A stretch of 64,000 bases of DNA from the NCBI RefSeq assembly GCF_000374105.1, contig NZ_KB893651.1, positions 637,472 to 701,471 on the forward strand, read 5' to 3'. The translations under genes were made by a program, and so were the position numbers. Positions within the stretch are counted from its first letter, which is position 1. Each line of letters opens with the position of its first letter. The notes under the pieces were generated by a model. It ran no database searches and was not told where the DNA came from. It worked only from the letters and a program-made list of their open reading frames with translations. The stretch comes from Kangiella aquimarina DSM 16071. Its GTDB lineage: Bacteria > Pseudomonadota > Gammaproteobacteria > Enterobacterales > Kangiellaceae. Positions 11,846 to 15,308 of the stretch are shown here, in pieces.

Positions 11846-11861
11846 AGACGTATAGACGTCC
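11846..11861. promoter_or_regulatory. MetJ operator (two tandem met boxes)
   Basis: AGACGTAT (11846-11853) and AGACGTCC (11854-11861) are adjacent 8-mers, each 7/8 to the met box consensus AGACGTCT in the tandem phase MetJ dimers require. They lie ~50 bp upstream of metH and overlap the -35 of the btuB-side promoter. Repression of metH, and perhaps btuB, by SAM-MetJ is inferred. Confidence 0.75.
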
Positions 11862-11880
11862 AAATAGATTTTGTTATAAT
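11853..11880 (+). promoter_or_regulatory. Promoter for the cobalamin riboswitch/btuB transcript
   Basis: TATAAT (11875-11880) is a perfect -10. TAGACG (11853-11858) is a 4/6 -35 at 16 bp spacing and lies inside the met boxes. The predicted start near 11887 leaves a leader of ~365 nt before btuB. Confidence 0.6.
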
Positions 11881-11935
11881 AGCACCGCTTTTGACAATCG
11901 TGAACCCTTTTCAAGAGTTTATCTTTTTAAAGCAA

Positions 11936-12180
11936 AGGCCAGTTGGCCACGATGAAATTCATCCCCTGATCAGGTCTTCCAAGCTGCAAACAAGCAAGGA
12001 GATAATCGGGAAATCAGTTGAAATCTGATGCTGCCCCCGCAACGGTAATTGATAGCGTCGCTTAATAAACCACTGAGTCCATTTCGGTATTAGAGAAATA
12101 ACTTGGGAAGGTAAGTGACTAGATGATCATAAGCCCGGAGACCGGCCTGAACAGTGTATCAAGCAGATCGGTGGGCTCTG
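11936..12180 (+). promoter_or_regulatory. Cobalamin (AdoCbl) riboswitch
   Basis: Two conserved cores of the class are present in order. One is the GGGAA...GAAATC...GCTGCCCCCGCAACGGTAA stretch (12008-12048). The other is the B12 box AAGCCCGGAGACCGGCCTGA (12131-12150). Aptamer ends are approximate. It precedes btuB, the classic target, and would turn the operon down when cobalamin is plentiful. Confidence 0.93.
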
Positions 12181-12230
12181 TTTAGGCTTAATTAGCCGGA
12201 TAGTAGATGTGTTTCTTTTTTTAATGCCCG

Positions 12231-12245
12231 CTCGTAAATTACGAG
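12231..12245 (+). promoter_or_regulatory. Hairpin masking the btuB ribosome site
   Basis: CTCGTAAATTACGAG is a near-perfect palindrome (CTCGT/ACGAG stem) whose 3' arm supplies the only Shine-Dalgarno-like GAG, 6 nt before the btuB ATG. This suits a riboswitch that acts on translation initiation (inference). Confidence 0.5.
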
Positions 12246-12251
12246 ACAACC

Positions 12252-14210
12252 ATGAGTTTAAAGAATACAACGATTCCAGCAGCTGTGATTATGAGCTGTC
12301 TGGCACAGCCCCTATTGGCTAATGAAACAATCCCCTCCATACAACTTGAACAAGACACTGAAACAGTAATTATTACCACCAGTCGTTTTGAATCTGACGT
12401 AAACCAACTGCCCAGTCACGTTACTGTAATTACTAAACAGGAGATCGAGCGGCTTTCTGCGACCGACTTGAGTCAGGTTCTACGAAGAGTTCCTGGTGTT
12501 CAGGTATCAAACACTAATGGCAAAACCAGCGTTTCGATGCGCGGCATTTCGGCTGAGCAGGCTGGTAGCAATGTTCTGGTTCTGGTTGACGGACAACGCT
12601 TGAATAAAACCGATCTGGCCTCTCCTGATATCGATACTATCAACATCATAGATATTGAACGGATAGAAATTATTCAAGGTGCTGGAAGCAGTCTTTATGG
12701 TGACCAGGCTGTAGCCGGTGTGATTAATATCATTACTCGCTCTGGTAAAAAGCAAACAAAAACTCTGCGTTACGCTCAAGGAAGTTTTGAACAAAAGCAA
12801 GCTGCGGCAAATTTAGGTTTTCAGCTGGATGAGCAATGGTCAGTGGTATTAAAGGGCAATAAAAAAACAACTGATAATTACCGTGACCATAATGAGCTCA
12901 AAAATAATCAATTGGGCGCAGAGCTTTTTTATCAGGACAATCAACAACAATGGCGTTTTTCTCATCGCACACGCAATGAAACTCAGCAGACGCCAGGCGC
13001 ATTGCTTGATTCGGATTTAGGTAACCCTCGTCAGTCTCGACCAGAGTTTGCTAATGATTATGTCAGTACCGATGAATACTTTAGTCGTGTTTTCGGGCAG
13101 CTAAAACTGAATTCACAATGGCAGTTTGCTTTAGATATCAATCACCAGGAAAGTGATATCCAGAGTATCAATAGCTTTATCAATTTTGCGACTTCTAATG
13201 TTAATCAGACCCGACGCTCTCAGAGTGGTATTTACCCAAGAATAAAGGGAGACTGGAATACGGATAATGGGCCCATGCAGTGGATTGCTGGAATAGATTA
13301 CGATAAGGCCGAATACCAATTTTCTCTTTTGGCTCGCAGTAACGAGCAAACCTCGGAAAGTGTATATAGCCAGTTTTACTGGCCACTTTCTACTAAATTA
13401 CAACTTGAACTTGCTGGGCGGTTGGCTGAAGTTGAGGACCAGTTAAGCGATGCAGCTTTATATCCCCAAGGAATAGTCCTCGACAAATCAGCATCAGCCT
13501 ATGATATTGGCTTTTCATATCAATTGAGTGGCGCTACGAAAAGCTTTATTCGATACAGCAATAACTATCGATTCGCCAAGGTTGATGAGCAAGCTTATAC
13601 ATCAGATGGGGTTCTGGGTCTTGAGCCGCAGACAGGGATATCCATTGAAGCAGGTGTGTCAGGCCAATTTGAGTCAAGTTCATTGCAGGCATCGGTTTAT
13701 CAGTTAAAACTGAAAGATGAGATTATTTTTGATCCATCGGCTACTCCTCCTGCAGGTGCTTTCTTTCCTGGAGCTAACGTCAACGGCAGTGAATCTACTC
13801 GACTGGGACTTCTGCTAGACTATCGCTATTTCATTGATGAGAGTGAAGTCGGGGTTTCTTATCACTGGGTGGATGCCGAAATTGATTCAAGTGAGCGGAT
13901 TGTTCCCGGTGTTTCTGAAAATACGGTAACAAGCTGGTTTGACTGGCAGCTAACCAGTGATATTAGTTGGTTTCTTGAAGCTCATCATCGTGGTGACCGG
14001 TATCAGGATGGTGATACCACTAATTCTTTTGCTAAAGTGGATGCTTATACCATTTTAAATAGTGCATTGGTTTGGCGATTTGATAATGCGCGACTGGGCC
14101 TGCGTGTCGATAATTTACTGGATAAAGAGTATATTGATTACGCGCAATTTAACGGGTATTACCCAGCAAAAGGACGAGATGTCATCATAACTTTTGATCT
14201 GGTATTTTAA
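12252..14210 (+). CDS. btuB: TonB-dependent outer-membrane receptor for cobalamin
   Basis: A 652-aa receptor with a signal peptide (~1-23, ending LLANE), a TonB-box-like segment (ETVIITTSRF ~37-46), a plug domain ~50-160 (LSQVLRRVPGVQV, SMRGISAEQAGSNVLVLVDG, GSSLYGDQAVAGVINIITR) and a 22-strand barrel ending in an aromatic residue (ITFDLVF), as outer-membrane proteins do. Substrate is assigned from the cobalamin riboswitch directly upstream and the adenosyltransferase gene downstream, besides BtuB-like plug motifs. Energised by TonB-ExbBD, it brings B12 into the periplasm for MetH and adenosyl-B12 enzymes. No btuC/D/F is in the window. Confidence 0.9.
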   Translation: MSLKNTTIPAAVIMSCLAQPLLANETIPSIQLEQDTETVIITTSRFESDVNQLPSHVTVITKQEIERLSATDLSQVLRRVPGVQVSNTNGKTSVSMRGISAEQAGSNVLVLVDGQRLNKTDLASPDIDTINIIDIERIEIIQGAGSSLYGDQAVAGVINIITRSGKKQTKTLRYAQGSFEQKQAAANLGFQLDEQWSVVLKGNKKTTDNYRDHNELKNNQLGAELFYQDNQQQWRFSHRTRNETQQTPGALLDSDLGNPRQSRPEFANDYVSTDEYFSRVFGQLKLNSQWQFALDINHQESDIQSINSFINFATSNVNQTRRSQSGIYPRIKGDWNTDNGPMQWIAGIDYDKAEYQFSLLARSNEQTSESVYSQFYWPLSTKLQLELAGRLAEVEDQLSDAALYPQGIVLDKSASAYDIGFSYQLSGATKSFIRYSNNYRFAKVDEQAYTSDGVLGLEPQTGISIEAGVSGQFESSSLQASVYQLKLKDEIIFDPSATPPAGAFFPGANVNGSESTRLGLLLDYRYFIDESEVGVSYHWVDAEIDSSERIVPGVSENTVTSWFDWQLTSDISWFLEAHHRGDRYQDGDTTNSFAKVDAYTILNSALVWRFDNARLGLRVDNLLDKEYIDYAQFNGYYPAKGRDVIITFDLVF

Positions 14211-14220
14211 GGGTTTATAC

Positions 14221-14769
14221 ATGAGTAATCGACTCACTCGAATCACAACAGGGCAGGGCGATAAGGGTTTGACGCGCCTTGCCAATCAGCAACATGTCAA
14301 AAAAAGCCATCCACGAATAGAAGCTATTGGGACGGTAGATGAGCTTAATGCATCACTGGGAGTGTTAGTCGCCTCAATCAAGGTGGGACAACATGAAACC
14401 ATCGTCAAAGCGATTAGGAATATTCAAAATCAACTGTTCAGCCTGGGCGGTGAATTGGCCAGTCCTGAACAGGAGTTTTTGAAGCAATCAGATGTGGTGC
14501 AGCTTGAAGCCTGGATAAAAACCTGGAATCAAAAACTTCCACCTTTGAAAGAGTTTGTTATACCGGGTTCCTGCTTAGCCTCAGCTCACGCGCATTTGGC
14601 TCGATGCATAGCGCGCCGCGCTGAGCGCCGCCTTATCGCACTTACTGAAGATGAAACGGTTACTGAACTGAGTATCATCTATCTGAACCGACTATCCGAT
14701 TTACTGTTTATTATCAGTCGAATAATTGCACGCTCCAATAATGATAAAGAAGCCCAATGGCAACGATGA
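14221..14769 (+). CDS. pduO: Cob(I)alamin adenosyltransferase, PduO type
   Basis: Transfers the adenosyl group of ATP to cob(I)alamin. 182 aa from ATG 14221; an upstream ATG at 14194 overlaps the btuB end and is less likely. Family marks: TRITTGQGDKGLTRL at the N-terminus (ATP-binding glycine loop), IEAIGTVDELNASLG, and CIARRAERR near residue 137, the conserved RRAERR of PduO/MMAB enzymes. It lies 10 nt after the btuB stop in the riboswitch-led operon, so imported B12 is converted in the cytoplasm. It is unrelated in fold to CobA/BtuR. Confidence 0.92.
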   Translation: MSNRLTRITTGQGDKGLTRLANQQHVKKSHPRIEAIGTVDELNASLGVLVASIKVGQHETIVKAIRNIQNQLFSLGGELASPEQEFLKQSDVVQLEAWIKTWNQKLPPLKEFVIPGSCLASAHAHLARCIARRAERRLIALTEDETVTELSIIYLNRLSDLLFIISRIIARSNNDKEAQWQR

Positions 14770-14780
14770 AGGAATTAGTA

Positions 14781-15308
14781 ATGGAAAAAATTAGCCCTAA
14801 AACATTAACCCTTATAGCGATTGTTATCGCTGTATCTCTGTATCGGGTTTTTCCTCACCCGTATAACATCACCCCGGTGATGGCGCTGGCACTATTTGCT
14901 GGAACTTATTTTGAGAAAAAGTGGATGGCATTTGCCGTGCCTTTGTTTTCCATGTTTCTGGCCGATCTGTTTTTAGGACTGCATAACACCATAATTTTTG
15001 TTTATGGTGCTATGGCTGTAGCAGTGCTTATAGGTTTCTGGTTGCAAAACCGAGTCAGTAGTCTGAAAGTGATCGGCGCGACCATTGGTAGTTCACTGAT
15101 ATTTTTCCTCATCAGTAACTTTGGGGTTTGGCTGGTCTCAGGCTATTACAGTAAAAGCTGGGCGGGGCTCATCGAATGCTACACCATGGCATTACCCTTC
15201 TTACAACGCAGCATGATGGGAGATTTATTATTCAGTGGTGTGTTATTTCTAAGTTACTGGCAGATACAGAAGTATTGGTTGAGTGCCAAAGTGGTGCAAA
15301 GAACCTAA
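14781..15308 (+). CDS. Multi-pass membrane protein of the DUF6580/ECF-S-like type, B12-linked
   Basis: A 175-aa protein from ATG 14781, chosen because AAGGA lies 7 nt upstream; ATGs at 14757 and 14766 also exist and overlap the previous gene. About five transmembrane segments are visible (LTLIAIVIAVSLYRVF, MAFAVPLFSMFLADLFLGL, FVYGAMAVAVLIGF, VIGATIGSSLIFFLIS, LLFSGVLFLSYW). PHPYNITPVMALALFAG and NFGVWL recall a family annotated as putative transport proteins with ECF substrate-component features. Being third gene of a riboswitch-controlled operon suggests a role in uptake of cobalamin or a precursor (inference). Family assignment is from memory. Confidence 0.65.
   Translation: MEKISPKTLTLIAIVIAVSLYRVFPHPYNITPVMALALFAGTYFEKKWMAFAVPLFSMFLADLFLGLHNTIIFVYGAMAVAVLIGFWLQNRVSSLKVIGATIGSSLIFFLISNFGVWLVSGYYSKSWAGLIECYTMALPFLQRSMMGDLLFSGVLFLSYWQIQKYWLSAKVVQRT

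Follow-up and report, generated by a model that had tools for sequence, protein, structure and literature searches.

In Escherichia coli, btuB expression is controlled by a riboswitch located in the leader of the gene. In the sections of Augustus & Spicer 2011 (PMC3228920) considered here, met boxes were recorded for btuB in 48 of 165 species, where they lie at the start of transcription and precede the riboswitch. Yersinia btuB promoters displaying this layout were repressed by MetJ (ratios of 0.06 and 0.25); the E. coli btuB promoter, which is devoid of met boxes, was not (ratio of 1.01). The same paper described met boxes at metH of Vibrionales, Aeromonadales and Alteromonadales, as well as operators shared by the pairs metH/nhaP, metE/metR and metJ/metB, and counted Kangiella koreensis among the species covered (PMC3228920). 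Likewise, btuB and metH were both assigned to the core regulon of MetJ in the parts considered of Leyn et al. 2014 (PMC4239095). The sections of PMC3228920 considered contained no statement on the sharing of an operator with a divergent metH. Literature searches combining MetJ with 'cobalamin riboswitch' returned nothing, those on the regulon and btuB returned PMC3228920 and PMC4239095, and those on Kangiella, vitamin B12 and methionine returned PMC3228920 alone.

The locus described here belongs to Kangiella aquimarina and was studied within a window of 64,000 nt (the whole stretch of DNA analysed). Its metH and btuB-like genes diverge from a gap of 456 bp, which we interpret as a divergent control region (Table 1); the first-pass annotation had described a region of about 450 bp holding a B12 riboswitch, an outline that was retained. 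As for btuB of Yersinia and other Gammaproteobacteria, the met boxes are located upstream of the riboswitch and far from the ATG (about 300 bp on average in those species, PMC3228920). Unlike in the Yersinia type, a metH gene diverges from the other side of the Kangiella operator, and genes for an adenosyltransferase and a DUF6580 protein are added to the operon. A met box beside metH recalls the arrangement of Vibrionales, Aeromonadales and Alteromonadales, with an operator that can be read both ways; in contrast to sharing of the metH/nhaP type, metH is paired here with a B12-import operon, itself subject to a second control at the RNA level. The leader resembles that of E. coli btuB by its cobalamin aptamer (RF00174 also matches in E. 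coli) but differs from it by the presence of met boxes. Since MetJ control of riboswitch-led btuB genes was already published (PMC3228920 and PMC4239095, as far as considered here), this coupling is not new in kind, and the locus adds a neat new example, not a new mechanism.

Table 1. Features of the metH/btuB-like cassette of K. aquimarina, with positions in the window
Feature	Positions	Strand	Characteristics
metH, cobalamin-dependent methionine synthase, 1227 aa	8112-11795	-	complete set of five MetH Pfam domains
Tandem met box, predicted MetJ operator	11846-11861	+	AGACGTATAGACGTCC, exact match
Promoter of the B12-import operon	11853-11880	+	-35 TAGACG, 16-bp spacer, -10 TATAAT at 11875-11880; promoter scan 10/12
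Conserved block 3' of the -10	11882-11910		CACC ... GGTGAACC-like
Cobalamin riboswitch aptamer	11955-12164	+	Rfam RF00174, 111.1 bits (gathering threshold 31.5)
Expression platform	12165-12251	+	GGUGGGC / GCCCGCU complementarity; CUCGUAA/UUACGAG hairpin
btuB-like TonB-dependent outer-membrane receptor, 652 aa	12252-14210	+	plug and barrel domains
PduO-type cobalamin adenosyltransferase	14194-14769	+	PF01923, 185 bits; TIGR00636, 180 bits, above cut-off
DUF6580 membrane protein	14757-15308	+	PF20221

Met box and promoter in the intergenic region

A MetJ operator was defined as at least two tandem 8-bp boxes resembling AGACGTCT, and such a pair was found 50 bp from the metH ATG. Its half-boxes, AGACGTAT then AGACGTCC, agree with the consensus at 14 of 16 positions. 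The exact motif AGACGTNNAGACGT had a single occurrence in the window and two in the 2.68-Mb genome (three contigs), where hand arithmetic from base composition gave a chance expectation of about 0.3 per genome and less than 0.01 per window. The second copy was found between metJ and metX (metX-metB pair). At up to three mismatches the window displayed 24 sites against a shuffle mean of 31.65, i.e. no excess over chance, and sites at up to two mismatches were not enriched genome-wide, so that the weight is carried by near-exact sites only. Within the 200 bp 5' of the riboswitch, the box score at locus L064 was reached in none of 500 mononucleotide shuffles.

The promoter scan placed the import operon's -35 hexamer inside this operator, and a TG preceding the -10 makes it an extended -10. 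The first-pass annotation had claimed two tandem met boxes that overlap the -35 of the riboswitch promoter and lie about 50 bp from metH, and both elements of this description were recovered. It had also named the presence of metJ as a check: the gene occurs in the same genome (PF01340, 155 bits), and its product closely matched 1cma, the structure of the Met repressor from E. coli, over 84 residues (E 5.3e-42). The conserved block listed just downstream of the -10 is found in most congeners and lies outside the aptamer; possibly, it forms a 5' hairpin of the leader.

A few other sites in the genome came within one mismatch of the motif. A tandem met box about 40 bp before a gene for a cysJ-like sulfite reductase flavoprotein (L008 1501-1514, G000:C2:299068) hints that sulfide supply in Kangiella could be under MetJ control. 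Another one was found where a DUF1302 gene begins (L005 1501-1514, G000:C1:1027170). Potential met boxes were noted at the K. koreensis DUF1302 gene Kkor_1992 in the sections considered of PMC3228920, and to this extent the set of sites obtained here agrees with that study. Three further one-mismatch sites (L004, L006 and L007), in or at genes with no evident link to methionine, were judged to be due to chance.

Conservation within and outside Kangiella

Among 20 genomes of the genus, metH, the cobalamin riboswitch and a close BtuB relative were each recorded in 13, always the same ones and in adjacent positions. All 13 cassette-bearing genomes also carry metJ, which was absent from five of the seven others and present in G022 (55% complete) and G033. 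Five near-complete genomes (G023, G026, G029, G030 and G031) were devoid of metJ, metH, metE domain, riboswitch and close BtuB relative altogether, which suggests that the last step of methionine synthesis was lost there.

The met box was exact in six of the 13 cassettes, displayed one mismatch in six and three mismatches in one; in other words, at least 11 of 12 positions were retained in 12 congeners, in line with the conservation that the first-pass annotation had set as a second check. The degraded box (9/12) belongs to G028 (L043/L067), and its best score was reached in 0.05 of shuffles. The left half-box was one mismatch off in 6/13. With a mean identity of 0.93 over 16 columns, the box was the most conserved block between metH and the riboswitch, the remainder of this stretch (box and -10 excluded) averaging 0.56; part of this conservation could reflect the -35 itself.

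On the minus strand, the scan also flagged GGACGTCTATACGTCT with a T run after it, so that the palindrome could be read as an intrinsic terminator instead of an operator. Such a terminator would be positioned upstream of metH. Its six-pair stem was complete in 6/13 cassettes and one pair short in 7/13 with no compensating change, the T run fades, and what stays conserved is the met-box sequence. On account of the incomplete stems and the fading T run this reading was rejected, its probability being negligible.

Spacing was informative as to which gene the operator belongs to. Every one of the 13 cassettes had 13, 14 or 15 bp between the box and the btuB -10, which reads TATAAT in 11, TATGAT in one and TATCAT in one; where measured (11 of 13 loci), the box started 362-408 bp from the btuB ATG. 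The metH start (codons chosen by hand from the open frame) lay about 50 bp away in five cassettes, about 83-94 bp away in six and 19 bp away in two, and a conserved metH promoter common to the 13 loci was not recognised. Since spacing to the -10 is fixed and distance to metH is variable, the operator appears, as judged from the alignments, to belong to the B12-import promoter no less than to metH. The first-pass annotation had proposed MetJ control of B12 import as a possibility; these comparisons favour it.

Two one-sided readings have to be weighed here. According to one of them, the operator would serve the import operon only, metH escaping control or using another regulator such as MetR. 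The variable distance to metH and the want of a recognisable conserved metH promoter speak for it; against it, the box stays within about 100 bp of metH in 13/13 cassettes, and metH genes of sister genera possess close boxes of their own (6/14 loci, see below). We consider this reading highly improbable.

The opposite reading, in which the operator serves metH only and the adjacent import promoter is left to the riboswitch, draws on other genera of the family. Of 14 metH loci read there, six had a met box no more than 150 bp away, and the core pattern of the riboswitch was seen in none of the 14 stretches read (nor by Rfam, which was run on 6 of them). Conversely, none of the 17 riboswitch loci examined in these genera (those of 47 places for which a locus was available) had a met box within 400 bp. 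The pairing of riboswitch and operator was thus not seen family-wide among the riboswitch loci examined, and MetJ control of metH seems to be more widespread than this pairing. Yet, in K. aquimarina the import -35 is inside the box, and across the 13 cassettes it is the distance to the btuB -10 that is fixed. Furthermore, nhaP, which has its operator in common with metH, was repressed equally even though the boxes seemed specific to metH (PMC3228920, in the sections considered). A last argument comes from the riboswitch-free locus L106 described below, where one box overlaps the btuB-side TATAAT. Restriction of the operator to metH is therefore held to be very unlikely, and its sharing by both sides is the preferred reading.

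A strong BtuB relative was recorded in 41 of 295 genomes of the order; a scan of the named genomes for BtuB relatives gave two loci. Outside Kangiella, 19 of the BtuB loci returned were examined and 18 displayed a riboswitch. It was absent from a distant Aeromonadales MAG (G459, locus L106) which carries the full cassette of metH, btuB-like, adenosyltransferase and DUF6580 genes. Three tandem box-like units were found in its 103-bp gap (L106 4437-4539), the last one overlapping the TATAAT on the btuB side. Seventeen of the examined BtuB loci belong to one other genus, and seven of these 17 displayed a box-like site 5' of the riboswitch (shuffle frequency at most 0.008) that runs into a TATAAT; metH was not found within 1.5 kb upstream of any of the 17. 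Both the L106 cassette and these box-like sites speak in favour of the shared operator. A class-wide search for box and riboswitch core at the Kangiella spacing, requiring near-exact letters and spacing, retrieved K. aquimarina alone among 369 genomes, a count that says little as most genomes of the class are probably devoid of metJ.

Riboswitch, import genes and need for B12

The RF00174 match was full length (model positions 1-189 of 189) and is followed by B12 genes. In the expression platform, the CUCGUAA/UUACGAG hairpin contains a Shine-Dalgarno-like GAG immediately 5' of the ATG. GGTGGGC-like and CCCGCT motifs were found in 13/13 Kangiella relatives by pattern and alignment; single-sequence folds formed the long helix inconsistently, and the leader helix is proposed from pattern and alignment. 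No plus-strand terminator or U-tract appeared in the platform scan. From this absence and from the hairpin over the ribosome site, we infer that riboswitch control would be translational, and the ligand is presumably adenosylcobalamin, by analogy with the RF00174 family.

The metH product was assigned from above-cut-off scores with two NCBIfam equivalogs, namely 1810 bits for TIGR02082 and 2208 bits for NF007024. The receptor matched the TonB-B12 model TIGR01779 over its full length but, with 155.3 bits, remained under the cut-off of 599.7, and is therefore named btuB-like, a name based on this match together with the riboswitch and the neighbouring genes.

The third gene of the operon codes for a DUF6580 protein with no sequence relatives among solved structures. 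Its model, built from 12 orthologues, reached a pLDDT of 88.4, and the best solved match given by VIA-align was BtuM (8ovv; Z 14.8, rmsd 3.0, 160 aligned), by which the model was attributed the S-component fold. Rows 3 to 18 of the same comparison are, judging partly from their titles, presumably ECF S-components as well. The top Foldseek match was also BtuM with B12, at an E-value (0.039) that is not significant alone. BtuM is a solitary B12 S-component (PMC6072759). DUF6580 resembles it by its fold and by its gene context, next to a btuB-like gene in a genome where no match to a FecCD/BtuC-type permease was found. In contrast to the BtuM family, which displays an invariant cobalt-binding cysteine, no cysteine occurred at the invariant columns of the 12 DUF6580 proteins, which are accordingly termed BtuM-like and not BtuM. 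From the structural model, DUF6580 is a probable BtuM-like inner-membrane importer of B12.

No match to PF01717 (metE-type) was found in this genome, so that B12 should be needed here for methionine synthesis. Across the 13 cassette genomes, this domain was absent in seven (this one and six others) and present in six, one of them weakly. Users of B12 were surveyed by a PF02310 (B12-binding) search, a domain outside which class II ribonucleotide reductase and QueG lie; MetH alone scored above cut-off, a second, weak match being a UPF0004 (MiaB-like) protein. As far as this search goes, imported B12 chiefly serves MetH, which makes a joint control by SAM sensible.

The operon also comprises an adenosyltransferase gene (Table 1) in a genome whose sole above-cut-off PF02310 protein, MetH, is a methylcobalamin enzyme. 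As the adenosyltransferase would make the riboswitch ligand all the same, adenosylcobalamin may be mainly a signal in these B12-importing Kangiella devoid of metE, one operator setting the supply of both enzyme and cofactor; given the riboswitch-free MAG cassette, the riboswitch may further be a later addition to an older MetJ-controlled metH/btuB cassette. This extended scenario is speculative and we regard it as unlikely.

Proposed control and significance

The interpretation favoured here, for which we see a good probability on the grounds of sequence comparison, is a MetJ operator shared by metH and the import operon, combined with an adenosylcobalamin riboswitch acting on import. MetJ dimers loaded with SAM would bind the tandem met box and, because the -35 is inside it, would block RNA polymerase at the import promoter. 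The same occupied box, close to the metH start, would block metH too; the box being common to both sides, high SAM would lower B12-dependent methionine synthase as well as B12 import. Adenosylcobalamin, which the adenosyltransferase of the operon could make, would bind the leader riboswitch and shut down btuB translation. The riboswitch would add a cofactor feedback independent of MetJ, and import would be fully on only if SAM and adenosylcobalamin were both low.

This locus, conserved in the genus, provides a compact natural example of an enzyme and its cofactor's uptake that are apparently placed under one SAM-sensing operator, with uptake also reading the cofactor itself. Action of both MetJ and the cobalamin riboswitch on btuB had been claimed in print, and the conservation and spacing seen here support it. 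A direct comparison for what the riboswitch adds is offered by the riboswitch-free MAG cassette, and the third gene of the operon gives DUF6580 a testable assignment as an inner-membrane B12 importer.
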